DNA of 64,000 nucleotides from Terriglobia bacterium. GTDB lineage: Bacteria > Acidobacteriota > UBA6911. Within the stretch, counting starts at the first letter, position 1, and each line of letters opens with the position of its first letter. Shown here piece by piece: positions 7,083 through 57,507 of this stretch. The notes below the pieces were generated by a model, which worked only from the letters and a program-made list of their open reading frames with translations, was not told where the DNA came from and did no database searches. Location: positions 62,001-126,000 of the forward strand of contig JAIQGI010000008.1 of NCBI GenBank assembly GCA_020072565.1, written 5' to 3'. Made by a program: the position numbers and the translations under genes.

Positions 7083-10000
7083 ATGAGGCAATCCCATAAA
7101 CACAGATTTCTCTTTTGGCTTGTTTTTGTATTGGTATTGGGCTCGCTCCCGACAGGCCTGCTGCTGGCTCAGGAAACTCGCGGCAGCATTATGGGCAGAG
7201 TTACCGATCAAAGCGGCGCCGTGATTCCCCGGGCGACTGTGGAAGTCCTTAACAAAGCCATGGGCACCAAGACCGCACTGGCAACTAATGAGCAAGGATA
7301 CTACCAGGCAACATTTTTGACTCCAGGCCTGTATCGGATTGAGGTCCAGGTTCAAGGCTTCAAGAAGTACGAGCGCGACAATATCGAAGTTCGCATCGCC
7401 GACCGGCTCGAGGTGAACATCCAGCTGACCGTCGGCCAGTTGGCAGATACGATCACGGTAATGGGCGAGACACCGCTCCTGGAAAGCACGACGGCTTCCC
7501 TGGGGCAGGTGATCGATGCGCGCCGCGCCACCGAGTTGCCGCTCGCGCACGGGAACCCATACCAGCTGATCGGGATTGCGGCGGGCGTCGGCTTCACCCG
7601 CGATCCAAGGTTGGACCGCCCCTACGAGCCGACGCACATCGTCGGCTATTCAATCGCCGGTACCCGCGCGAACCGCAGCGACCTCACGATTGACGGCATC
7701 GCGAGCACGGCCACGGCGAATGCCAACGAGGTAACCGCAACTTACCCGCCGCCGGGTGACATCATCCAGGAATTCAAAGTTCAGACATCGACCTTCGATG
7801 CGAGCTTCGGCCAGACCGAAGGCGGCGTCACCAACATCAGCATTAAGTCGGGCACCAACGCGCTGCACGGCACGGCCTATTTCGCAGGCCTGCCGCCGGC
7901 AGGCTGGGGATGGGCTGCCAACGACTTCTACGCCAACCGCCTCAATCAAAAGATTGCGACTTTTACCGAAAAACGGTGGGGCGGATCGGCGGGCGGTCCC
8001 GTCTATATCCCGCACCTCTACGACGGCAGGAACAAGACATTCTTCATGTTCGGATATGAAGGAATTCACGACAACCGTCCGCGCAACGACGTGACCAATG
8101 GCACCGTGCCGAGCGCCAAGATGAAGAAGGGCGATTTCTCGGAACTGCTGGCCATCGGCCCGCAGTACCAGATTTACAATCCGTTCACCCGGAGATCGAT
8201 AGCCGGCGGCCGAATCCAGGCGGATCCATTCCCAGGCAACATCATTGACCCGGGTTTGCTCAATCCGATTGCTTTGAAAATCCTCTCCTATTATCCGGAT
8301 CCGCGCTTCACCCCCGTGGATGCCACGGGCCTGGGCAATAACCAGGATCCGGGCCTGGTCGAAGCAGCCAAGTACTACAACTGGACGGTCAAGGTGGATC
8401 ACAACATAAACGATCGACACCGGATCTTTCTCCGCGCCAGCGCCTATACGAGAAACAGCCTTTACGATAACTACCTCTCCAATTACTTGCTCACGGGCGA
8501 CGCTTTCCAGTTCTTGGCCAAAAACGGCGTCATCGACGACGTGTACACCTTCGGTCCGACCACCGTGTTGAATGTGAAGTTCGGCTACAGCAGGTTCATT
8601 CGGGCAGACAAAACTAATTCCGAAACTGGATTTGATCTGACCAGTTTGGGATTTCCGGCTTCGTACAACGATTCGATTCCGAAGGACATACGTCGCTTCC
8701 CGGCAGTCTCGATGACCGGCTACCAGGCCACGGGCCCCGTCGGTTGCGAGTTCAGGCCGGTCGAGATCTATTCGCTCCCCATAACCCTCTCGAAAGCCCA
8801 GGGGAGGCACTTCCTCAAGGTCGGCATGGAGTTCCGCGCATATCGCGAAACCGACGGCTTCACGGGTCACAACCAGACGGGTTCGTTTACCTTTGATACA
8901 ACCTACACCAAGGGGCCATTGGATAATTCAACCGCGGCACCCAGCAGTTTTGGTCAGTCCGTCGCAGCCTTGCTTCTTGGGTTGCCGACCAATGCCAGCT
9001 TTGTCAGGCGGGCCGCCAGCTACGCCGAGCAGTCAACCTCCTGGGGTTTCTTTGTACAGGATGATTGGAAGGTCCTTCCGAAGCTGACCCTGAACTTTGG
9101 CTTGCGCTGGGAGTTCGAGGGCTCCTTGACGGAGCGATATAATCGCACCGCGACCAGCTTTGACTACAACGCACTCCAGCCTATCAGCGCTCAGGCTGTG
9201 GCCAACTACGCCTTGAATCCCGTGACCGAAATCCCGGTAAGCCAGTTCAAAGTGCAGGGCGGACTGATGTTTGCCGGAGTCGGCGGCCAGCCGAGAGGCG
9301 CTTATGAAACCCCGAAGAAAAACCTCATGCCGCGGTTTGGGATTGCCTATCAGCTGACTCCCAAGACCGTCATCCGCTCCGGATATGGGATCTTCTTCGG
9401 GTTCCTGGGTGAACGGCGCGGCGACGTGATCCAAACCGGGTTTCAGAGAGATACGAATTTTGTTCCCACCACCGATAACATCAACTTTATTGGCACGCTG
9501 TCCAATCCATTCCCCAGTGGGATCCTGGAGCCGGTGGGGGCGGCATCAGGCGCCCAGACCTACCTTGGACAGAATCTCAATTATTCAATCCAGGGCCAGG
9601 GGATCGCGTTCTTTAATCCGAAACCACAGGTGTCGTACATGCAGCGCTGGCAGTTCGGCATCCAGCGGGAGCTGCCCGGGGGTGTGGTGGTCGAAGCGGC
9701 ATATATCGGCAACCGCGGCACCCATATCGAGCTCACGAGAGACCTGAATGTGACGCCGCAGAAATATCTGAGCACACTCTCGACCCGTGATGCGACTGTC
9801 ATCAACTACCTGACGTTTAATTTCACGAATCCGTTTTATGGACTCGCGTGGCCGGCGGGTGCGACCAGCACGTTCACGGGAAAAACTATTGCGCGCGAGC
9901 GGCTGATGCGCCCATTCCCCGCTTTCGGCACCGTATCCACAACCACGAACGAAGGGTATTCCTGGTACCATGGGGCGGAACTGAAGGTAGAAAAGAGATT

Positions 10001-29138: not shown

Positions 29139-29184
29139 CTCCCAGGGATTTTCCCTCCATAAACCAGGGATCTACCTAGTTTTC
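29139..29184 (+). promoter_or_regulatory. Tandem AGGGAnTTnCCTA boxes, locus A
   Basis: Two imperfect palindromes, CCAGGGATTTTCCCTC (29142-29157) and CCAGGGATCTACCTAG (29164-29179), with centres about 22 bp apart, followed by TTTTC. The same pair, with the same spacing, occurs at 50071-50110 and 54296-54338. Two helical turns between palindromes suggests two dimers of a transcription factor on one DNA face. It lies about 80 bp upstream of a small zinc-ribbon gene. Confidence 0.6.
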
Positions 29185-29262
29185 TTTTCATGACCTGGGG
29201 CCTTACAAAGGAGCGAGTGCGCACAGCGTGCGCATCACGATCGGCTGAGGCAGGAGGTCGTC

Positions 29263-29520
29263 ATGGGACAGGCTCTTCGGCAGTGTCAAGGAATCCAATT
29301 GATTTGCGTCTGTTGTGTGTGCGGAGAGGCACGGGACGATATCGCGGTTGATGGCACCTGGCACAACCTCAGAGCATATCTGCACCAATATGGACTCAAT
29401 GAACAGGATCTTGTTTTTTCCCATACCTTCTGCCCCTCCTGTTTGACGCTCTACAGGCAATTGTCAGGCCTGCCGACCGCGAACAAGTCCCCGGTCTCCC
29501 GGGCTGCGCTGGGAGGATAA
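29263..29520 (+). CDS. Small zinc-ribbon protein (orphan CxxC...CxxC domain)
   Basis: An 85-residue protein: LICVCCVCGEARDDIAVDG, then GTWHNLRAYLHQYGL and FSHTFCPSCLTLYRQL. The four-cysteine pattern, with RDD, a conserved Trp and FSH before the second CxxC, matches the short domain usually found at the end of PAS or response-regulator proteins (typically CxCCKKIRDD and FSHGICPDC). Here it stands alone. The start has AGGAGG six bases upstream. It shares upstream tandem boxes with the zinc-ribbon gene at 50281, so the two are probably co-regulated. Molecular function unknown; zinc binding is inferred. Confidence 0.75.
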   Translation: MGQALRQCQGIQLICVCCVCGEARDDIAVDGTWHNLRAYLHQYGLNEQDLVFSHTFCPSCLTLYRQLSGLPTANKSPVSRAALGG

Positions 29521-42717: not shown

Positions 42718-43089
42718 TTGGCCTGCAGTCTCACTTCGGGAATCGGAGTGCGCTTGACGCTGAAGAGCTTGCCTCAGACACTGTCCCAGGACACTGCTTC
42801 CTGCCTTTATCGGGTGATGCAGGAGAGTCTGCGCAACGCCGCCAGACACGCGCGCACCCAGCGCATCTCGGTGAGCCTTACGGGATCGGCGCGAGATCTC
42901 AGCCTCTCCGTCAGAGATTGGGGCGTCGGCTTCAATCCCGAGATTCTGAGAGCCGGGCGCGGAGGCCTCGGCATAGTCGGGATGAAGGAGCGTGCGCGCC
43001 TGGTGAACGGGACCTTGCATCTTCACTCCAGGCCGGGGCAGGGGACGCAGGTCGTAGTCCGGCTGCCGCTTGCGGAGGTCAGGCAATGA
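42718..43089 (+). pseudogene. Truncated NarX-type histidine kinase (ATPase domain only)
   Basis: The 123-codon frame contains the tail of a histidine kinase: GIGVRLTLKSLPQTLSQDTA, CLYRVMQESLRNAARHARTQ (N-box), LSVRDWGVGFNPEI (G1), GRGGLGIVGMKERARLVNG (G2) and LHSRPGQGTQVVVRLPL. The HisKA_3 dimerisation domain with its phospho-accepting histidine and any sensor region are missing. A TGA in the same frame at 42706 prevents extension. It overlaps the response-regulator ATG by 4 bp as an intact kinase would. A TTG at 42718 or GTG nearby could still yield a small ATPase domain, but autophosphorylation would be impossible. Confidence 0.75.
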
Positions 43090-43748
43090 CACGCACCAGC
43101 ATCCTGCTGGCTGACGACCACACTTTGGTGCTGGAGGGATTGAAGAAGCTCCTCGCGCCGGAGTTTGAACTGGTCGGAATGGTTAAGGATGGCCGCGCCC
43201 TGTTGGCTGCCGCCGGCAAGCTGATGCCCGATGTAGTACTTTTGGACATTTCGATGCCCCTGCTGAATGGCTTGGAGGCGGCCCGCCAACTGAAGAAGAT
43301 GCTGCCGGATGTACAGATTGTTTTCCTGACCATGCACTCGGAAAAAGTCTACGTTACCGAAGCGTTCCGCGCCGGCGCTTCCGGATACCTGCTGAAGAGC
43401 TCGGCGGCTTCGGAACTCGTGTTTGCCATCCGGGAAGTGGTAAAGGGGCGATTCTACGTGACTCCCCTTGTTGCCAAAGACGTGCTATGCACTCTTCTGG
43501 ATCAGCCCCGGAGACCGCACCCGGCTGCGCGCCCGGGCTCTGCCGAAAATCTGACTTCGCGCCAGCGCGAGGTGCTGCAGCTGGTTGCCGAGGGGTGTGC
43601 CAACAAAGAGATCGCCGAAATCATGAAGATCTCCATCAAAACCGTAGAGTTCCACAAGTCGGCAATTATGCAGAAGCTTGGGCTGCACGGCACGGCCGAA
43701 CTGACCAAGTACGCGCTCAAGCACGGCATTGCCGGCGAAACCGAGTAG
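43086..43748 (+). CDS. NarL/FixJ-family response regulator
   Basis: A 220-residue two-domain regulator. The receiver has ILLADDHTLVLEGLKKLL (acidic pair DD), the phospho-acceptor in VVLLDISMPLLNGLEAARQL, the switch Thr in IVFLTMHSEKVYV and Lys in SGYLLKSSAA. The C-terminal LuxR-type helix-turn-helix reads ENLTSRQREVLQLVAEGCAN, KEIAEIMKISIKTVEFHKS, AIMQKLGLHGTAELTKYALK. It is complete and overlaps the decayed kinase by 4 bp, so its phosphate source must now be another kinase or a small molecule. It is one candidate for binding the tandem boxes at 29.14, 50.07 and 54.30 kb, purely by family. Confidence 0.93.
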   Translation: MTRTSILLADDHTLVLEGLKKLLAPEFELVGMVKDGRALLAAAGKLMPDVVLLDISMPLLNGLEAARQLKKMLPDVQIVFLTMHSEKVYVTEAFRAGASGYLLKSSAASELVFAIREVVKGRFYVTPLVAKDVLCTLLDQPRRPHPAARPGSAENLTSRQREVLQLVAEGCANKEIAEIMKISIKTVEFHKSAIMQKLGLHGTAELTKYALKHGIAGETE

Positions 43749-47346: not shown

Positions 47347-48246
47347 TCAGACTTGTTTGCCCAGAGGTGATGTCCTTTTGCGGTCGGAGCCGGTTTGGGC
47401 TGCCGGCAGGGACGATGTGTCTTCCTGGATGACGTAATGCCGCCGCCAGCGTCGCGGGGAGACGAGCGCAGCGACAAAGAAGATCAGCGTGGCGAGCAGA
47501 ACGATCGTTGCGCCGGAGGCAGTGTTGAGCTTATCGGAAAGCAGCAGTCCCCCCAGTGTGCTCCCCACGCCGATGGCGATCGCCAAGACCATCATGCGCC
47601 GGAAATTCTCCGTAAGCTGGTAGGCGGCGGCCGCGGGGGTCACCATGAGCGCCGAAACCAGCACGATCCCCACCACCTTGATCGACAGCACCACGGTAAG
47701 CGCGATCAGGCTGATCAGCAAGAAGTAGATCCTGGCGGCCGGCACTCCCGTCACAGCCGCCATTTCCGCATCGAAAGTCACGAACAGCAGTTCCTTGAAA
47801 AAGAGCAGCACCAGGCCCAGGACGACCCCGCTCAATCCCAGAATGATCCAGACATCGTCCCGGCTGACAGCCAGGATACTTCCGAAAAGGTAGCCGAACA
47901 GGTCGACGTTGTATCCGTGCATGAGCCCGATCAGGAGAATTCCGAGTGCCATCGTCGAGGCGAAAAAGATCCCCACTGCCGTGTCCTCCTTGACCCGGCC
48001 CTTGCGCGCCACCAGGCCGATACCCCAAGCCGTCCCCAGGCAGAAAATCACGGCGGTCAGAACCGGATTGAGCTTGAGGAAGAACCCCAAGGCCACGCCT
48101 CCGAAGCTGGCATGTGCGATCCCCGCCCCGATGAACGAAAGCCCCTTCAGAACGACGTAAGTGCCGATGATGGCGCACACGATGCCGATCAGAGTGCCGG
48201 CAAACAGAGCGCGCTGCATGTAATGGTAGCCGAGTAACTCCATCAT
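47347..48246 (-). CDS. znuB: Metal (zinc/manganese) ABC transporter permease
   Basis: A 299-residue inner-membrane subunit with about eight TM helices. Motifs of the metal-type permeases: RALFAGTLIGIVCAIIGTYV, VLKGLSFIGAGIAHASFGGV, GFFLKLNPVLTAVIFCLGTA, and the coupling-loop region EMAAVTGVPAARIYFLLISL, ALTVVLSIKVVGIVLVSALM, VTPAAAAYQLTENFRRMMVL. The start at 48246 overlaps the ATPase stop as ATGA. The C-terminal 45 residues after the last helix are polar and basic (SPRRWRRHYVIQED). It is the last gene of a three-gene transport operon. Confidence 0.92.
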   Translation of the reverse strand: MMELLGYHYMQRALFAGTLIGIVCAIIGTYVVLKGLSFIGAGIAHASFGGVALGFFLKLNPVLTAVIFCLGTAWGIGLVARKGRVKEDTAVGIFFASTMALGILLIGLMHGYNVDLFGYLFGSILAVSRDDVWIILGLSGVVLGLVLLFFKELLFVTFDAEMAAVTGVPAARIYFLLISLIALTVVLSIKVVGIVLVSALMVTPAAAAYQLTENFRRMMVLAIAIGVGSTLGGLLLSDKLNTASGATIVLLATLIFFVAALVSPRRWRRHYVIQEDTSSLPAAQTGSDRKRTSPLGKQV

Positions 48247-49025
48247 CGTTCTTTTTCCACTACCAGATGAGGCACACGCCCGTGATGGAAAAACATCGCG
48301 TCGCACCCGTACATGGTCGAGAGTTCGTCCGAGCCCAGCACTTCAGCGGGGCGCCCGTGTGCGACCAGACGCCGGTTGATGCAGACGACGCCTTCCACAT
48401 AGGAAGCGACTACGCCGACATCATGGGAAACGACCAGCATGGTAATGCCGCCGGCGTGCAGCGCCTTCAGAAGCTCATAGAGGCCTTCGCTCGACGCCAC
48501 ATCCACGCCCGTCGTCGGTTCGTCCAGCAGCAGCAGATCCGGCTCGTTGGCAAGGGCGCGCGCCAGGAAAGCGCGCTGCCTCTGCCCGCCTGAGAGGCGC
48601 CTGATGGGACGATCGGCCAGGTCGGCGATTCCCACGCGATTCATGGCTTCCATCGCGGCGGCACGGTCCCTTGCGGAAGGGCGGCGGAACAGGCCCATGC
48701 GGCCATACCGGCCCATGAGTACGACTTCCCCCACGTTTACCGGGAAGTTCAAGTCTACAGACATGATCTGCGGCACATAGCCGATCCGGCGCCGTTCGCC
48801 TTCGAGAGCTGCCGGGCTCTTCCCGAACACCCGGACCCTCCCGCTCACCGGGTGAACCAGGCCGAGAATAACCTGCAGCAGGGTGGTTTTGCCCGCGCCG
48901 TTCGGGCCTATGATGGCCAGAAAGCTGCCGGCAGGCACAGTGAGGCTCACGTCGTCGAGCGCCAGGAGATCCTGGAACGCGACATTGACATGGTCCAGCT
49001 CAATGATCGGATTGGTTGGGTTCAT
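48243..49025 (-). CDS. znuC: Metal (zinc/manganese) ABC transporter ATP-binding protein
   Basis: A 260-residue ABC ATPase. Walker A is IIGPNGAGKTTLLQVILGL, the Q-loop is YVPQ, the signature is RRLSGGQRQRAFLARALAN, Walker B is DLLLLDEPTTGVDV and the H-loop is LVVSHDVGVV. SVDLNFPVNVGEVVLMG after the Q-loop is characteristic of zinc/manganese importers. It follows the binding protein by 27 bp and overlaps the permease. ATP hydrolysis here drives uptake across the inner membrane. Confidence 0.94.
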   Translation of the reverse strand: MNPTNPIIELDHVNVAFQDLLALDDVSLTVPAGSFLAIIGPNGAGKTTLLQVILGLVHPVSGRVRVFGKSPAALEGERRRIGYVPQIMSVDLNFPVNVGEVVLMGRYGRMGLFRRPSARDRAAAMEAMNRVGIADLADRPIRRLSGGQRQRAFLARALANEPDLLLLDEPTTGVDVASSEGLYELLKALHAGGITMLVVSHDVGVVASYVEGVVCINRRLVAHGRPAEVLGSDELSTMYGCDAMFFHHGRVPHLVVEKER

Positions 49026-49052
49026 CGCTCTCGCTTCCTTCCCCGCTGACGG

Positions 49053-49946
49053 CTAGCGCAAAGCCATGCTGATCTGACTCAAGTTGTAGCGCATGAGATC
49101 GAGATATCTATAGTCGGGCGGCCGCCCGAGTGGATTCAAGAGCAACACGCGCGCTCCGGATTCTTCGGCAATCACTTCCGCCGCCTTGGTGGAAAACTGA
49201 GGTTCTGCGAAGATCACCCTGGCCTTGATCTCCCTGGCCTTCCGGACAATGGCGGCGATTTCCGCCGGGGACGGTTCCTGCCCAGGGCTGCGTTCGATGA
49301 CGGCCGTTTCTTCCAGGCCATAATCAGCGGCGAAATAGGACCAGGCGGCGTGAAAAGCTATGAATCGCCGGCTGGAAAATCCGGCCACGGCTGTGCGGAT
49401 TTCCTCGTCAAGCCTGCGCAACTCGCGCTGGAACCTGTCGGCGTTGGCACGATAGATTTCCGCTCCTGCCGGGTCGGCAGTCACCAGTGCCTCGCGAATC
49501 TTCTCTGCCTGGCGCATCGCGTCCACCGGACTGAGCCACGTGTGCGGATTTCCGCCCGGCTCGTCGGCGTCGCCGGAAAGTATCTTCAAGCCCTCGCTGA
49601 CCGTAACGACCGTCAGATGGGGATTGTCGGCGGCCGAGATGACCTTGCCCGCCCAGAACTCCAGCCCGACCCCGTTCAGCACGAGAACGCGGGCGCGCGT
49701 CACCGCCTTCAACTGTGCCGGAGTGAGATCGTAGGTGTGCGGGCTTGCTCCGGCGGGCACCAGCACCTCTACTTGAACACGCTCGCCGCCCACCTGCCGC
49801 GCGAAGTCCGCCAGAGGCAAAATGCTGGCAACCACCGGCACCCGGGTATCCTGCATTTTGGAGCCTTTCGAATTGACGCACCCCCCTGCACCCAGACTCA
49901 AGGATATCAGCAGCGACATTGCGGCGAAAACGCGGTCTCCCGGCAT
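49053..49946 (-). CDS. znuA: Metal (zinc/manganese) ABC transporter substrate-binding lipoprotein
   Basis: A 297-residue periplasmic binding protein of cluster 9. The signal peptide ends in a lipobox (SLGAGGC), so it is probably membrane-anchored. Metal ligands are in PAGASPHTYDLTPAQLKAV, GNPHTWLSPVDAMR and FIAFHAAWSYFAADYGLEE, with the last acidic ligand in RVIFAEPQFSTKAAEVIAEE. There is no His-rich loop, which is more common in high-affinity zinc proteins, so Mn is not excluded. The ATG at 49946 is preferred; a GTG at 49952 has no usable spacing to GAGG. Confidence 0.92.
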   Translation of the reverse strand: MPGDRVFAAMSLLISLSLGAGGCVNSKGSKMQDTRVPVVASILPLADFARQVGGERVQVEVLVPAGASPHTYDLTPAQLKAVTRARVLVLNGVGLEFWAGKVISAADNPHLTVVTVSEGLKILSGDADEPGGNPHTWLSPVDAMRQAEKIREALVTADPAGAEIYRANADRFQRELRRLDEEIRTAVAGFSSRRFIAFHAAWSYFAADYGLEETAVIERSPGQEPSPAEIAAIVRKAREIKARVIFAEPQFSTKAAEVIAEESGARVLLLNPLGRPPDYRYLDLMRYNLSQISMALR

Positions 49947-49985
49947 CCACACCTCGTCTCTACAGCCGCTCGGGCCGTTGAATCA

Positions 49986-50070: not shown

Positions 50071-50110
50071 CTAAGGAAAATTCCCGGATCTACCAGGGAT
50101 TTGCCTAGTG
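50071..50110 (+). promoter_or_regulatory. Tandem AGGGAnTTnCCTA boxes, locus B
   Basis: Box 1 is TAAGGAAAATTCCC (50072-50085), and box 2 is CCAGGGATTTGCCTAG (50093-50108), centres about 21.5 bp apart, followed by TGTTC. A possible -10 (TACACT) is at 50132-50137. It matches loci A and C in sequence and spacing and precedes a structured leader and a zinc-ribbon gene. Confidence 0.65.
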
Positions 50111-50149
50111 TTCTGCCGTGCACCGACTGACTACACTCGTTTTCACCAT

Positions 50150-50238
50150 GAAATTCCGCAAGGTGTCCCACCTTTACCAATTCCGCAACACCAACCTCTG
50201 GTCATGGGGGCAAACCGAGTTGAGGCGGTTTGGCCCCC
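50150..50238 (+). ncRNA. Candidate structured leader RNA, copy B
   Basis: A stretch similar to 54381-54467: TTCCGCAA, GTCCCACCT, CAAT and CCGCAACA words in the same order, leading to a hairpin at 50206-50238. The hairpin stem is GGGGGC plus AAACC paired with GGTTT and GCCCCC (one bulged G). Its loop GAGTTGAGGC is identical in the other copy although the stem bases differ. A small hairpin (AAGGTG-TCC-CACCTT) lies at its 5' side. It ends 42 bp before the zinc-ribbon ATG, so a cis-regulatory role is likely. Confidence 0.55.
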
Positions 50239-50280
50239 GAGCAGAGCCCCGGCAGAGTGGGGAGGGAAATGGGAGGCATC

Positions 50281-50535
50281 ATGAACTGTCATCGTTGTAA
50301 CGGCCTGATGTATCGGATGGAATTGCGGGACAGCAAGGGATTCGAACGACTCAAGGCTCTGGTGTGCGTGATCTGCGGTGAAATCGTGGATCCGGTGATT
50401 GCCGTCAATCGTCAAAGAGACCTGTCCCTGAAGGTGCGTCTGCCGAAACGCGCGGCCCGCCTCGGAAAATATTGGAAAAAACTCGGACGATTGCCAATCA
50501 GCCCCGGCGGAGTCGAACACGAGATTCGGCCCTGA
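50281..50535 (+). CDS. Small zinc-ribbon protein, 84 aa
   Basis: Reads MNCHRCNGLMYRMELRDSKG, FERLKALVCVICGEIVDPVI, then a basic tail with KVRLPKRAARLGKYWKKLGR. The two CxxC pairs (CHRC and CVIC) about 25 residues apart make a zinc ribbon; the lysine/arginine-rich tail suggests nucleic-acid binding. GGGAGG lies just before the start. The family is not recognised beyond the fold. It shares promoter boxes and a leader RNA type with the loci at 29.1 and 54.3 kb and is divergent from znuABC. Zinc binding is inferred. Confidence 0.7.
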   Translation: MNCHRCNGLMYRMELRDSKGFERLKALVCVICGEIVDPVIAVNRQRDLSLKVRLPKRAARLGKYWKKLGRLPISPGGVEHEIRP

Positions 50536-51220: not shown

Positions 51221-52069
51221 ATGGAAAGCGTCCAACTGCGAAGCATGACCCGCAAACAACTCGTCGCTCTGGCAAAGAGAGCCCGCATCCCCAGGTACAG
51301 CCGCATGGCAAAAATTCAGCTCATCGCGGCGCTGGCCTCTGCCCGGACGTCGGAAGTAACCGAACTTCCCGCGAATTATGGGCGGACGCGCCTGACTCTG
51401 ATGGAGATCGAGCCCTATTGGGTTTATGCGTATTGGGAAGTGACGCCGGCGCATCGCCGCGCTGTTTTTCATCGCCGGGGAACGGATGAGGCTTCCGGCC
51501 AATGGATCCTGCGTTTTTTCGACATTACCGGCGTCGAATCCCGGCCGGAGGGTGGGCATGACCCGTTTGATGTGCTTGTCAACTTGAAGGCCGGCAGTTG
51601 GTACGTCAACCTCTGGTCCGGCGGTAAATCCTATATTGCCGACCTCGGCCTGCGCACCGCCCGAGGCCGCTTCGTTCCCCTCTGCCGCTCCAACCCGATT
51701 CGCGTTCCCTCTGCCGGCCCTTCGCCTGAGAGCAAGCCCCGCTGGTTGAAGGTTGAGGGCATTTTCGAACAGGTTGAGGAAGTGTCGGAACCAGCGCCCA
51801 TTGATGTTCCAGCGCAATCGCAGGTTGAGGGTAGGCGGGATCCTCCTCCGGAAGCGCCGGTGGCGTCTGCGCCGCCTGCTGCCGCGGGTGCCACAGAGAT
51901 GCCCGGCGTTGGCCCCGCATGCCCCCCTCGATCCTGTCTGATCCCGGCGCCGCAGGAACCTCTTTCAGCAGGCAGCAGCTTCGGACTCGGGATCAACCGC
52001 TCGGAGCAACGACAGCAGCCCTCTCTGCCGGCCAGGACACCCCAACGACGAGATCCCGTGAAATCATAA
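51221..52069 (+). CDS. DUF4912 protein with Rho-N/SAP-like N-terminus
   Basis: A 282-residue protein. Residues 1-45 form a SAP/Rho-N-like helical hairpin (MTRKQLVALAKRARIPRYSR, MAKIQLIAAL). Residues 50-165 are the DUF4912 domain: RLTLMEIEPYWVYAYWEVT, GQWILRFFDITG and VNLKAGSWYVNLWSGGKSYI, followed by ADLGLRTARGRFVPLCRSN. The last 100 residues are proline- and alanine-rich and unstructured. The domain is often encoded with GH57 branching enzymes and GT4 glycosyltransferases, as here. Its biochemical role is not established; carbohydrate binding is a common guess. Confidence 0.82.
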   Translation: MESVQLRSMTRKQLVALAKRARIPRYSRMAKIQLIAALASARTSEVTELPANYGRTRLTLMEIEPYWVYAYWEVTPAHRRAVFHRRGTDEASGQWILRFFDITGVESRPEGGHDPFDVLVNLKAGSWYVNLWSGGKSYIADLGLRTARGRFVPLCRSNPIRVPSAGPSPESKPRWLKVEGIFEQVEEVSEPAPIDVPAQSQVEGRRDPPPEAPVASAPPAAAGATEMPGVGPACPPRSCLIPAPQEPLSAGSSFGLGINRSEQRQQPSLPARTPQRRDPVKS

Positions 52070-52179
52070 GTTGCCCGGCGGTTGTTATCAACTGTTCCGC
52101 TTCCACACTGGGATGATTGAACAGGAAGCAGAGGGGCGCGTACAATTCTTCAGTTTGTCTGTTCGGGATGGAGAGGTCC

Positions 52180-53796
52180 ATGAGTCTTGGGTATCTTGCC
52201 CTCGTCCTGCATGCCCATCTACCGTTCGTGCGCCATCCCGAGCATGAGGACTTTCTCGAAGAGGACTGGCTTTACGAAGCGATTACCGAGACCTATATCC
52301 CGCTGCTCTGGGTGCTCGAAACCCTCGTGGAAGACAGCATCGAATACCGGCTCACGCTATCGCTGACTCCGTCGCTGGTATCGATGCTCAACGATGACCT
52401 CTTGCGCTGCCGCTACGCGCGGCACCTGGACTTGTTGTGTGAATTGGCCGAGCGGGAAGTGAAGCGCACGAGGCACCTGCCTGACTTTCACGACACGGCC
52501 CTGATGTATTGCGCCAGATTCCGCAAGGCGCGCGACTGCTATTCCAGGCGCTGGAGGATGGATCTCGTCGGCGTTTTTCGGCGTCTGCAGGACCTGGGCA
52601 GGCTCGAGATCATCACCTCGGCAGCGACGCACGGATATTTGCCCCTCCTGCGCGTAAATCCAATGACGGTGCGGGCACAAATCCTGATTGCGTCGCAACA
52701 TTACCGGGAGACGTTTGGGCGCCGGCCCCCGGGCATCTGGCTGCCCGAGTGTGGATTCTATCCGGGCCTGGACCAGATTCTGAGAGAGGCCGGACTCCGC
52801 TACTTCTTCGTTGATGCTCATGCCATTCACAACGCCGAGGGGCGCCCAAATTGGGGCGTGTACGCGCCGGTATACTGCTCGAGCGGCACCGCTGCCTTCG
52901 GGCGCGACCAGGAGTCCGCAAAGCAGGTGTGGAGCTCGATCGAGGGGTACCCGGGGGATTACGACTACCGCGAGTTTTATCGGGATATCGGCTATGATCT
53001 GGAGTTGAGCTACGTGGCACCCTACATCCACAAGGACGGCATTCGGGTCAACACCGGCATCAAATATTACCGCGTGACCGGACCCACCGACAACAAAGAG
53101 CCCTACGTTCCTCGAAAGGCGCAGGAGAAAGCGGCCCTCCACGCGGAGGACTTCCTTTTCAAGCGGCGCCGGCAGGTGGAATTTCTGCACGGCCGGATGG
53201 GACGCAAACCGATCGTGGTGGCGCCATATGACGCCGAGTTGTTCGGACACTGGTGGTTTGAGGGGCCCGACTGGCTCAACGTCCTTTTCCGCAAGATCGC
53301 AGAAGACCGGGAATCCGTCCGGTTGACCCAGCCTTCCGAGTACCTGGCCGAGTACCCCATGAATCAGGTAGCCACGCCGAATGCGTCGAGCTGGGGTTAT
53401 CAGGGCTTCAGCAACGTCTGGCTCAACGGTTCGAATGACTGGATCTACCCGCACCTGCATGCGGCGGCGGACCGAATGGAGGAAGTGGCCGAGGCGCATC
53501 CGGCAGCGGAGGCCACCATGCGGCGCGCCCTCAATCAGGCCGCACGCGAACTGCTTCTGGCGCAGTCAAGCGATTGGGCCTTCATCATGACCCGCAACAC
53601 CGTTGTCCCCTACGCTGTGCACCGCACCAAGGAGCACTTGCTCAAGTTTCATCGGCTTTACGAGATGATCAAGCTCGGCACCCCCGCGATAGAGGAAGGC
53701 TGGCTGGCCGAGCTCGAGTCTCGCGACAATATCTTCCCGAAACTGGATTATGCGGTGTATCGTCGCGACTACCCCGCACCTTCAGGCAAGATTTGA
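52180..53796 (+). CDS. GH57 family 1,4-alpha-glucan branching enzyme-like protein (DUF1957)
   Basis: A 538-residue GH57 protein. The N-terminal barrel opens with YLALVLHAHLPFVRHPEHED (His pair of the family) and FLEEDWLYEAITETYIPLLW. The nucleophile Glu lies in GIWLPECGFYPGLDQIL and the acid Asp in VVAPYDAELFGHWWFEGPDW. The C-terminal helical part has SSWGYQGFSNVWLNGSNDWI and HRTKEHLLKFHRLYEMI, typical of thermophilic-type branching enzymes. It would form alpha-1,6 branches in glycogen. The ATG at 52180 is preceded by GGAGAGG. The neighbouring glycosyltransferase of this set is decayed, so the substrate must come from elsewhere. Confidence 0.88.
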   Translation: MSLGYLALVLHAHLPFVRHPEHEDFLEEDWLYEAITETYIPLLWVLETLVEDSIEYRLTLSLTPSLVSMLNDDLLRCRYARHLDLLCELAEREVKRTRHLPDFHDTALMYCARFRKARDCYSRRWRMDLVGVFRRLQDLGRLEIITSAATHGYLPLLRVNPMTVRAQILIASQHYRETFGRRPPGIWLPECGFYPGLDQILREAGLRYFFVDAHAIHNAEGRPNWGVYAPVYCSSGTAAFGRDQESAKQVWSSIEGYPGDYDYREFYRDIGYDLELSYVAPYIHKDGIRVNTGIKYYRVTGPTDNKEPYVPRKAQEKAALHAEDFLFKRRRQVEFLHGRMGRKPIVVAPYDAELFGHWWFEGPDWLNVLFRKIAEDRESVRLTQPSEYLAEYPMNQVATPNASSWGYQGFSNVWLNGSNDWIYPHLHAAADRMEEVAEAHPAAEATMRRALNQAARELLLAQSSDWAFIMTRNTVVPYAVHRTKEHLLKFHRLYEMIKLGTPAIEEGWLAELESRDNIFPKLDYAVYRRDYPAPSGKI

Positions 53797-53821: not shown

Positions 53822-54262
53822 GTGTCTTTCAATCCAATCCCCGAAATCATCGATGGTCTGCCCGACATTGCCGGATGGGAAGATCAAGTCAGCGACGGTG
53901 AGAACGGGGGGGTGATGATGAATGAGTTTCCCGCTAACTACCAACGCGTCTGGTACGAAATCGGCCTGGAGGGCGTGGTCGGCCTCAATGGGACCGAATA
54001 CCTTGAACTGCTCACGGCAGAGGGATTCTCTGAAGGGGATTTTGAGCCTGTTAAGCCGATTCACCAGCATGCCATCTGGAAGCGTGTGGGCGCCCATCCC
54101 ACCCCGGAGAGCGTGGAAAGGGCGATCGCGGAAACCAGGGTGAGCGATCACCGGTTTCTCATGGAAGGTGGGTCCTGGACGAACAATCAGTATGCAATCC
54201 AGAGTGGCGCAATAGCCGCGACGGGAATGATGAACGGTGGAGCGATTGTCGAGGCGGATTGA
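53822..54262 (+). CDS. Protein of unknown function downstream of the branching enzyme
   Basis: A 146-residue frame that begins at a GTG (53822) with MSFNPIPEIIDGLPDIAGWE. It continues NEFPANYQRVWYEIGLEGVV, LNGTEYLELLTAEGFSEGDF, HQHAIWKRVGAHPTPESVER and MEGGSWTNNQYAIQSGAIAA. It is soluble, acidic, and contains several Trp and His residues. A second possible start is the ATG pair at 53914-53917 after a G-run. No family recognised. It is 26 bp after the GH57 gene, so it is likely in its transcript. Confidence 0.55.
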   Translation: MSFNPIPEIIDGLPDIAGWEDQVSDGENGGVMMNEFPANYQRVWYEIGLEGVVGLNGTEYLELLTAEGFSEGDFEPVKPIHQHAIWKRVGAHPTPESVERAIAETRVSDHRFLMEGGSWTNNQYAIQSGAIAATGMMNGGAIVEAD

Positions 54263-54295: not shown

Positions 54296-54338
54296 GCTAG
54301 GGAAAATCCCCCTAACATTTAGGGTTTTGCCTAGTTTT
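54296..54338 (+). promoter_or_regulatory. Tandem AGGGAnTTnCCTA boxes, locus C
   Basis: Box 1 TAGGGAAAATCCCCCTA (54298-54314) and box 2 TTAGGGTTTTGCCTAG (54319-54334), centres about 21.5 bp apart, followed by TTTTC as at locus A. A possible -10 (GAATAT) is at 54356-54361. Confidence 0.65.
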
Positions 54339-54380
54339 CAACAGACTGGCATTCGGAATATCCTGGCATTTGCAAAAAGC

Positions 54381-54467
54381 ATTCTGCAACAAGTCCCACC
54401 TGACAATCTGCCTGCAACATCCTCTTCAAGACCTGGGGACACCGAGTTGAGGCGGGAGGTCCCCAGG
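54381..54467 (+). ncRNA. Candidate structured leader RNA, copy C
   Basis: Homologous to 50150-50238. It ends in a hairpin (54432-54467) with a perfect 9-bp stem CCTGGGGAC/GTCCCCAGG, an inner CC/GG pair and the loop GAGTTGAGGC shared with copy B. The stem sequence is different from copy B but still pairs, which is evidence for selection on RNA structure. Confidence 0.55.
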
Positions 54468-54657
54468 AAAGAGGGTGTGCGCATCGGTGCCGAAACCGGC
54501 AGTCGGGTCTACCTGATACTTGAGATCGCGATACACAACGGCCGGTTTATTGACTCTGACATCTCGGTTTGAAGTTCTAACCCGCGCTCAGCGGCAACGC
54601 AAAGCGTCGCCCGCTGGAGCGCACAGTTAGACATCAAGCTTGCACCTTGCGAAGGCT

Positions 54658-55785
54658 TCACGGGAGAAACCTTTCAGGGTGGCGCAACTTCTCCGGGAGA
54701 TAGTTGTCGATGACATAGTTCAAACCATGCTTAGCCAGAGCCTGCTGCTCGGCACGCACCCCCATGCGCAGGAGCTGCTCCAGCGCCGTGACCCAAGTCT
54801 TGTGATGCCGGATGAACGGATCATTTTTGAGCGCATCACGGGCGCGTTTGATGTCGACATCCTTGAGCGGGTGGGTCGGCAGCTTGTAGTCGATGATGTC
54901 CTGCGGCGTGATCCCGAGAAATGCGGCCTGGGGAACGCAAAAGAACTCGTTCAGGTGGGCGGCATTTCCCGATCCCACTTTGAGTGTCCGATAGATATTT
55001 GTGATCCCATAAGGGTCGCCATCGACAAAGACGTACACCGGGATTTTCTGAAAATCCGCGAGCCTGCGGATGAATCGCCGGCACGCCCGGGTTGGGACTC
55101 CGCCCATGCTGATCAAAATGCAGTTCGCCCTCTTCCAGTAGTTGTGCTTGACCAGGCGTTGAAACATCCCCGCCGTTTCTATGACCAGGATGAAGCGGGC
55201 GTTGGTCTCGAACTGGAGATGCTCGACGGTGATCGGAATGCTGTAGGCGCCGGTGCCGAATTTGGTGCAGTCGATGCGCAGAACTCTGCCCGTGTCACGG
55301 TCACGGTCGAGAACGACCAGGCGGCCCGCGACGTCACCCCCCTTTTCTTCCGGGATGAAACCCAGCTGTTCACGGTTGACCGAAAAGTAGGCCTCCACAT
55401 CATCCATCACGGTGTCGGACTCCGGCTGCTCGCTGAAGCGCGCGTCCTCCCAGTTCTTGGAAACGTAATACGCCTCCCGCTTGGTCGCGATGTCGTCGTT
55501 CTCCACCAGATCTTTCGAGAGCGCGATCATGCGCAGCGTCTGGGCGAAGGTCTTGACGGTATTGACGGTCAGGGTACGCTCCTTCTTCTGACCTGCGATC
55601 TCGAAAAATCCCCTGTCAGGGTGGTACTTGACATTGCTCAATGACCGCACGGGAAACTTCATGGTCGGCTTCTTGCGAGCCAGTATTTTTTTTTCGATAT
55701 CCAGCGCCGAACTCTTGATGGCGCCTAACACCTGCTTGTTCGCGGCACTGGGCGACTTGGATGCCGGCGTCGTTTTTTTGGGCAT
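54658..55785 (-). CDS. top6A: DNA topoisomerase VI subunit A
   Basis: A 375-residue type IIB topoisomerase cleavage subunit (Spo11 homologue). The winged-helix catalytic tyrosine lies in DIATKREAYYVSKNWEDARF. The Toprim domain has the metal-binding Glu in FILVIETAGMFQRLVKH and the acidic DxD in VYVFVDGDPYGITNIYRTLK. TKFGTGAYSIPITVEHLQF is also family-typical. The N-terminal 30 residues are lysine-rich. It follows subunit B by 87 bp in the same direction, the usual gene order. Topo VI is best known in archaea and plants, and it occurs patchily in bacteria. Confidence 0.93.
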   Translation of the reverse strand: MPKKTTPASKSPSAANKQVLGAIKSSALDIEKKILARKKPTMKFPVRSLSNVKYHPDRGFFEIAGQKKERTLTVNTVKTFAQTLRMIALSKDLVENDDIATKREAYYVSKNWEDARFSEQPESDTVMDDVEAYFSVNREQLGFIPEEKGGDVAGRLVVLDRDRDTGRVLRIDCTKFGTGAYSIPITVEHLQFETNARFILVIETAGMFQRLVKHNYWKRANCILISMGGVPTRACRRFIRRLADFQKIPVYVFVDGDPYGITNIYRTLKVGSGNAAHLNEFFCVPQAAFLGITPQDIIDYKLPTHPLKDVDIKRARDALKNDPFIRHHKTWVTALEQLLRMGVRAEQQALAKHGLNYVIDNYLPEKLRHPERFLP

Positions 55786-55872
55786 GAATCCACTCCTTTA
55801 CAGACTTCAGACCTCCGAAATCCGACCTCCGCGTGAGTCATATCTCTCCGGGTCGAAGGCCGGAGGTCCGAA

Positions 55873-57507
55873 TCATTTCGTCGTCCGGCTGCGCTCCAGG
55901 ACTTCGCGCAGCGTCGTCACCAGTTCGGCCTCCACTTTTTCCGGCAGTCCCAGGATCTCGCGCAGCGCAATGCCGATGTGCGGGATATAACGCTCGATGT
56001 AGGATTTTTTCTTTTCCTCTTCCACCTCGCGCCGGTGCGCCCGGATGTGCACGCCCAGTCTGCGCCCGCAATCCTGGAGCGCCAGCCGGAGTTCCTTCGT
56101 GATTTCGGGATAGCCGGCGATGGCTTCTTTGCTCTCCGAGGTGAAGGGCACCCAGACGGAAGCGATGTGGACGAAGAGCACCATCGGACCCGCCGGCAGC
56201 GCGCCTTTCGCCATCGACAAGCCGTAGTTTCGCCAGTCGATGCTCAGCACCGCCTTGGTGACAGCGCAGGCCGACTGCTGGTACTGAAGCGGCACGCGGT
56301 TGGCAAAGCGCAACAAGTCGATAAGATCGTCCGCGGGCAACTCGCCGCCGTAGGCCATTCCCACTTCGATCTGGAAGGGATTGCCGCGATAGACGGACGG
56401 GGTGCGGGTGATTGCCGTGAAAAACGATGCCGCGATTTCTTTCTGCATCCCCGACAGTATCTGCTCCTCACCTATCGGAGACAGGCAGCTGGTCGGCGGG
56501 CTCATTATTTTGACGCCGTTGATGGCCTTGTACAGGCGCTCGGCCTCGGTGACGGCGATCGAATGCGGGTTGGCGGTCGGGCGGAGCTGCGCTGCCTGGC
56601 AGATCTCCAGAGCCACCCGGGAACTCACACGGGAGAAATCGTGCTGGAGCGCTCCTGCAAGATTGCGCGCGCGCGTCTCCTTGAGCATCTTGATCAGCGC
56701 GCCCAGCTCCACGCCGTAGGGATGGGGCCTGATTTCCCTGGGCTCGGGCGGGAGTGTTTCGGAAGCCCGCGGAAAGTGCTGGACCGCATCGCCGCCGGGA
56801 AATGAGTAGAAGATCTCGCAGTGGGGGTTGGCTATGGCAGTCTGGCGGATATAGTCATCCACCGAATGCCGGCCCTTCTTGTAGGTCCCGACGAGCTCAA
56901 TCTCGACTCTTGTGCCGTGCGGCGGTTCCCATTCCCTCACCGAGTCGATGATGATCTGGGGAGCATTCTTGCGCGTGTCGATCTGGATTTCGTAATAGTG
57001 TGCGGGCTTGCCCGGCCCCGTGCGCGAGATCACAACCACCGATTTGCCCGTGGTGAGCAGGCCGTACATTCCGGCTGCCGAGATTCCGATCCCCTGCTGG
57101 CCCCGGGCCTGCTTCAGGGTGTGAAACTTCGAGCCGTAGAGCAGCTTGCCGAAAATCCTGGGGATCTGAGCCTTGACGATCCCCGGGCCGTTGTCTTCAA
57201 CTGCGATGCGAAAGCGATCTTCCGCCAGCTGCAGGATTTCAATCTTCAGGGTTGGGAGAATGCCGGCTTCTTCGCAGGCGTCAAGTGAATTGTCGACAGC
57301 CTCCTTGATGGCAGTCAGGAGCGCTTTCTGAGGATTGTCGAATCCCAGCAGGTGGCGGTTCTTGGTGAAGAACTCCGATACCGAGATCTCGCGCTGGCGT
57401 GCAGCCATGCTCTCGGCTGTCTCGCGGCGCCCGGAGCTGCGCTCTCGAGATACCGTCGCTGCAAGCGCCTCGGGAGCAGGTGTCGCTCCTGTATCGGCAG
57501 CTTCCAC
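55873..57507 (-). CDS. top6B: DNA topoisomerase VI subunit B
   Basis: The GHKL ATPase subunit of topo VI. ATP-site motifs: [20 protein letters not shown] (N-box), [20 protein letters not shown], and [20 protein letters not shown] (lid). The transducer domain follows with [20 protein letters not shown] and [19 protein letters not shown]. The region before [20 protein letters not shown] is variable. The GTG at 57507 lacks a ribosome site. The frame stays open upstream, and an AUU at 57673-57675, eight bases after AGGAGGG, would add 56 basic residues ([20 protein letters not shown]). The real start is therefore uncertain. Confidence 0.93.

Follow-up and report, generated by a model that had tools for sequence, protein, structure and literature searches.

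Two paralogous RNA units share an upstream DNA element

The 64,000-nucleotide stretch of Terriglobia bacterium DNA analyzed here (contig JAIQGI010000008.1; 'the window') harbors two homologous candidate RNA units on the plus strand, 4.2 kb apart, that have in common a series of words, a terminal hairpin and an almost identical upstream element. The sequence gives good support to their status as a conserved RNA unit that does not code for protein, since the words are kept against a saturated background, the spacings between them break the reading frame, and a significant hairpin is found in both copies. With slightly less than even confidence, we propose that the two copies are sibling small RNAs activated by a regulator of the NarL/FixJ type, with copy 1 also being the leader of a zinc-ribbon gene.

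The candidate RNAs extend over positions 50145–50240 (copy 1) and 54371–54468 (copy 2), with the 5' ends being approximate. An alignment of 50150–50241 with 54380–54469 yielded four exact long words (ATTCYGCAA, GTCCCACCT, YGCAACA and ACCGAGTTGAGGCGG) and the further word TGGGG. An earlier note on this DNA had described two leaders with a common word series, and this observation is borne out: the Smith–Waterman score of the leader pair (92–93 nt) is 182, as against 60.7 ± 12.0 (maximum 129) for 2,000 dinucleotide-shuffled pairs (z = 10), and about 3,000 random pieces of the window reached a local-alignment score of at most 107. In the whole 7.46-Mb genome there are exactly two occurrences of CCGAGTTGAGGCGG. 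Likeness between the aligned copies is strong in the element (z = 9.8) and in the leader, slight in between, and absent past the hairpin; the conserved unit thus spans the region from element to hairpin. Within the leaders, the stretches between words look saturated with change, and what survives is one 15-mer, two 9-nt words, and the hairpin with partly different arms. The conserved word GUCCCACC, which includes UCCC, lies at 50165–50172 in copy 1, where it is a candidate pairing region, and at 54393–54400 in copy 2. Sibling small RNAs are recognized by the presence of at least two homologous RNA units per genome; here there are two, presumably transcribed, copies with a similarity of z = 10.

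GTCCCACC and GCAACA lie 12 nt apart in copy 1 and 13 nt apart in copy 2, and GCAACA and CCGAGTTG lie 24 nt and 22 nt apart, respectively. These shifts of +1 and −2 nt place the words in different frames, so the shared part is non-coding. Copy 1 can be read from an ATG at 50148, and copy 2 lies inside a 111-residue open reading frame, but the reading frames that overlap the words match no Pfam or NCBIfam family. Together with the significance of the leader similarity, this makes protein coding or chance resemblance a most improbable explanation for the two copies.

A hairpin is maintained at the end of both copies

Both copies fold into a stem-loop at their 3' end, at 50206–50238 (GGGGGCAAACCG-AGUUGAGG-CGGUUUGGCCCCC; −21.9 kcal/mol when excised) and at 54432–54467 (CCUGGGGACACCG-AGUUGAGG-CGGGAGGUCCCCAGG; −22.3 kcal/mol). 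The end hairpin proposed previously therefore exists, but the loop that forms is AGUUGAGG, with CCG/CGG as its closing pairs, and not the 10-nt GAGTTGAGGC. When the shared 14-mer was held constant and the flanks of 14–16 nt were shuffled, 0.4% of the shuffles for copy 1 and none of 2,000 for copy 2 folded equally well, indicating that the hairpin has been maintained in each copy. The loop is largely exposed (mean unpaired probability 1.00 in copy 1 and 0.83 in copy 2), and GUCCCACC in copy 1 is partly paired (0.42 unpaired). Folding energies of the whole leaders are unremarkable (z = −2.0 to 0.05).

The sequence alignment of the two copies contains no base pair altered on both sides. A structure-based realignment, which moves the arms by one base, gives a single G-C versus A-U exchange, and the helix extensions differ, being inner in copy 1 (AAA/TTT) and outer in copy 2 (CCT/AGG). 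RNAalifold, applied to the two sequences, returned as its consensus a structure other than the shared hairpin. The compensatory outer stems described in the earlier note were thus overstated. In the 5' part, the folds of the two copies are unlike each other, so that words are conserved there and a structure is not. The note's broader suggestion of a functional RNA holds insofar as the conserved non-coding unit is concerned, whereas covariation provides no support for it. No T run follows either hairpin, despite the GC-rich stem, so that neither resembles an intrinsic terminator. Pairing of the loop GUUG with CAAC of the GCAACA words, as a pseudoknot or between the copies, was also considered; it is possible, yet it comprises 4 bp and is readily expected by chance.

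The RNA is confined to one genome among those searched

Rfam gave no match in the window at the gathering threshold. Even at E = 10, cmscan left the RNAs unmatched and returned just two off-target snoRNA matches (E = 2.5 and 7.2) that lie outside them; the comparison with catalogued motifs suggested in the earlier note hence linked the pair to no family, Acido-1 and Acido-Lenti-1 included. A covariance model built from both copies recovered these two alone in their own genome, and the other 37 of 38 genomes of the class that were searched gave no match at E = 0.02; over 60 relatives, the best other match (E = 0.027) was in coding-looking sequence. The absence of further copies from such a search had been named beforehand as counting against a structured-RNA family, and a family beyond the two copies is not established.

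Searches with the sequence itself gave the same picture. Among 149 relatives, the word pair is present in its own genome alone, and the whole DNA of copy 2 found short chance matches, save for one match to the promoter element (contig C467 of the relative G004, see below). A scan for the word pair in 84,980 species returned 8 matches, where about 13 were estimated to be expected by chance, none of them with support from the covariance model, and viral, phage and plasmid collections held no real match to the RNA. As far as is visible from these sequences, the RNA appears to be restricted to its lineage, which limits what comparison can prove.

Gene context differs between the two copies

A small zinc-ribbon-like protein of 84 residues (MNCHRC..CVIC; 50281–50535, plus strand), which matches no Pfam or NCBIfam family, is encoded 42 nt past the hairpin of copy 1; copy 1 thus doubles as its 5' leader. 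Divergent from both is a znuABC-type zinc/manganese uptake operon (47347–49952, minus strand). Copy 2 is free-standing: it is placed after a small gene that ends at 54262, is convergent with the gene for topoisomerase VI subunit A (54658–55785), and is followed by no gene on the plus strand. An element, about 100 nt and a hairpin without a common downstream gene favor a small RNA over a leader. The earlier suggestion of a small RNA released from such a leader fits the arrangement of copy 2.

Two other features of this region deserve mention. Directly after copy 2, this bacterium has adjacent genes for topoisomerase VI subunits A and B (54658–57507, minus strand; Pfam TOP6A-Spo11_Toprim, NCBIfam top6b and NF003218). 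Between the RNA copies (51221–53796, plus strand) lie genes for a DUF4912/Rho_N protein and then a GH57 glucan branching enzyme.

The upstream element may define a regulon

The best clue to function is the shared upstream element, which the earlier note did not include. An almost identical 43-bp sequence, CTARGGAAAATYCC..AGGGWTTTGCCTAGTNTTC, precedes copy 1 at 50071–50113 (CTAAGGAAAATTCC .. CCAGGGATTTGCCTAGTGTTC) and copy 2 at 54297–54339 (CTAGGGAAAATCCC .. TTTAGGGTTTTGCCTAGTTTTC), as seen by alignment, by shuffling and by exact core matches in a genome scan. It consists of two tandem imperfect inverted repeats, activator-type AGGG-N5-CCTAG sites (CTAGGG..CCTAG), and its end is 101 bp from the loop motif in one copy and 102 bp in the other. 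Putative −10 hexamers can be placed at a common position downstream (TACACT, 50132–50137; TATCCT, 54359–54364), and a scan for sigma-70 promoters found no consensus match at either copy.

Genome-wide, the core AGGGN5CCTAGTNTT is matched exactly at just four places, three of them in the window and one on contig C20. The third copy in the window (29143–29184, plus strand; core at 29166) has no RNA downstream and lies 78 bp ahead of an 85-residue Cys-rich open reading frame (29263–29520). The core on C20 stands ahead of a gene for a zinc-ribbon protein that is 52% identical to its paralog at 50281, so that two of the four cores stand before zinc-ribbon paralogs. Of 396 genomes of the phylum, two contain a stricter core, YAGGGN5CCTAGTTTTC: the present genome and G004, a member of a second genus in the same family. 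Leaders behind the other elements (at 29185, on C20 and three in G004) bear no similarity to the RNA, which suggests that the element defines the regulon and that the RNA units are members of it. None of the papers listed in a literature search names the CTAGGG site.

The Cys-rich frame behind the third element (ICVCCVCGEARDD..FCPSC; 29143–29520 with the element, plus strand) matches no Pfam or NCBIfam family. A region at 29240 that resembles copy 2 (TGAGGC-GGAGGTC) is probably a Shine–Dalgarno-type coincidence (p about 0.05). In G007 and G011, the element pattern with one mismatch is matched about 200 times per genome, often in close pairs, by a dispersed repeat, AGGGGCGAACCTTGTGTT, that is unrelated to the element. 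In G004, a two-site element of the same layout (C467, position 11340) is not followed by any clear gene within 500 bp and possibly marks another non-coding RNA unit.

A candidate regulator is encoded in the window

The layout of the sites leads us to predict that the element is a binding site for a NarL/FixJ-type regulator; such sites are inverted repeats of about 16–20 bp that lie upstream of the promoter. The candidate activator, a response regulator with a receiver and a GerE/LuxR helix-turn-helix domain by Pfam, is encoded at 43089–43748 (plus strand), directly behind a fragment of a NarX-type histidine kinase that comprises the ATPase part only (42718–43089, plus strand). Outside this genome, its nearest homolog within the taxonomic family (G004, contig C680, 6139–6777) shares 69% identity with it, has the recognition-helix segment ISIKTVEFHKS unchanged, and sits behind a 482-residue open reading frame resembling an intact NarX-like kinase; as the latter occupies the same place, the kinase may be truncated in the present genome. 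The regulator in G004 is followed, after about 0.5–0.6 kb, by an element (7296–7313) and by a relative (7421) of the zinc-ribbon gene at 50281; regulator, element and zinc-ribbon gene are thereby linked in a second genus. The genome holds 12 matches to the regulator at 1e-20, so its assignment to the element is unproven and draws on the neighborhood in one relative.

Alternative explanations

The RNA could instead be a cis-acting leader: as the 5' untranslated region, it would use the hairpin, or a protein that binds the loop, to control how the zinc-ribbon mRNA (gene at 50281) is translated or how stable it is, and copy 2 would be a duplicate whose gene has been lost. The short distance between copy 1 and that gene, the presence of the element ahead of zinc-ribbon paralogs on C20 and in G004, and a long fold of copy 1 that reaches the start region of the gene all speak for such a role. 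However, the leaders on C20 and in G004 lack the RNA, showing that a zinc-ribbon gene does not need it, and copy 2 has retained words and hairpin with no gene and, on reading the sequence, no CxxC remnant behind it; we therefore regard this explanation as unlikely. It is likewise unlikely that the regulated DNA element is all that matters and that the resemblance of the leaders is a functionless leftover of local duplication. A local pair, found in this genome alone, and elements without the RNA at 29143 and on C20 would be expected from such a history, but the persistence of the 15-mer, the two 9-nt words and the hairpin in otherwise saturated sequence would not.

A leader that senses a signal, as a metal or metabolite riboswitch or an attenuator, was another suggestion of the earlier note. 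Copy 1 is divergent from the znuABC-type operon and stands ahead of a zinc-ribbon gene, and the conserved GUCCC can form a helix with GGGAC in copy 2 or with GGGGC in copy 1, so that it may compete with the 3' arm of the hairpin for the GGGRC arm. With 5 bp, this competing helix is energetically weak beside the hairpin (about −22 kcal/mol), and neither a common 5' fold nor a U-tract is present. Whereas riboswitches are recognized by a complex conserved fold, covariation and a consistent class of downstream genes, here we found a single hairpin, zero covarying pairs, a copy 2 with no gene to control and no Rfam match. A sensor is accordingly very unlikely. A sponge for CsrA was also considered and appears unlikely, as neither copy has GGA in the loop AGUUGAGG and copy 1 has none anywhere.

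The reading that we favor, sibling small RNAs, has evidence against it as well: two copies in one genome only with no orthologs found, no covariation, no U-tract and no sigma-70 consensus promoter. The partial pairing of GUCCCACC in copy 1, the unlike 5' folds and the abundance of NarL-type regulators in the genome also count against it.

Discussion

We envisage the two copies as sibling transcription units, each of which would yield a small RNA of about 95–100 nt. A NarL/FixJ-type regulator, probably that encoded at 43089–43748, would turn on both units by binding, immediately ahead of the promoter, to the tandem AGGG-N5-CCTAG-type sites. The 5' part of the RNA would present the unstructured conserved words ATTCYGCAA, GUCCCACCU and YGCAACA, and the GC-rich hairpin presenting AGUUGAGG would form the 3' end and protect it. 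By analogy with sibling small RNAs such as LhrC1–5, the exposed words would most likely base-pair with other mRNAs; copy 1 would additionally serve as the zinc-ribbon leader, while copy 2 would act alone.

LhrC1–5 of Listeria monocytogenes are multicopy small RNAs controlled by LisR (PMC4132741, PMC5880928), and RNAs of this type use a UCCC motif against Shine–Dalgarno regions (PMC4132741). The present pair would resemble them in comprising sibling RNAs under one two-component system, in having single-stranded stretches between hairpins, and in carrying short repeated words as well as words of the UCCC type, here GUCCCACC. The sequences are unrelated, however, and whereas the LhrC copies hardly differ from one another and have a terminator at their end, the two copies described here have diverged and lack a U-tract. 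CsrB/CsrC and RsmX/Y/Z, small RNAs under UvrY/GacA (PMC4682653), are sibling RNAs with a NarL/FixJ-type regulator and a palindromic site upstream of the promoter, the same layout as that proposed here. Unlike these, the present RNAs have one hairpin with a loop, AGUUGAGG, that lacks the GGA bound by CsrA/RsmA, and the site is AGGG-N5-CCTAG rather than TGTAAG-N6-CTTACA. In being candidate non-coding RNAs of narrow distribution, they are also akin to Acido-1 (RF01686), Acido-Lenti-1 (RF01687) and Solibacter-1, which come from Acidobacteria (PMC2864571). The cmscan results set them apart from the first two; Solibacter-1 is absent from Rfam and hence stood outside that comparison, and the scans returned no match from Solibacter.

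The paralogous RNA units are real and well delimited, and the pair constitutes a new candidate in a known class, that of sibling small RNAs controlled by a response regulator. A more specific view, which we consider rather doubtful, is that they represent a lineage-restricted family of small RNAs in which a hairpin with a AGUUGAGG loop and repeated unpaired words act as a pairing scaffold, under a NarX–NarL-type system that also controls small zinc-ribbon proteins; to our knowledge, such a circuit is undescribed in this group.

Lineages so little cultured have yielded few known small RNAs and few known response-regulator circuits. If the proposal is correct, element, regulator, two RNAs and zinc-ribbon genes would make up a defined two-component regulon that is amenable to testing with reporters, and the pair would exemplify the origin and duplication of a regulatory RNA inside one lineage.
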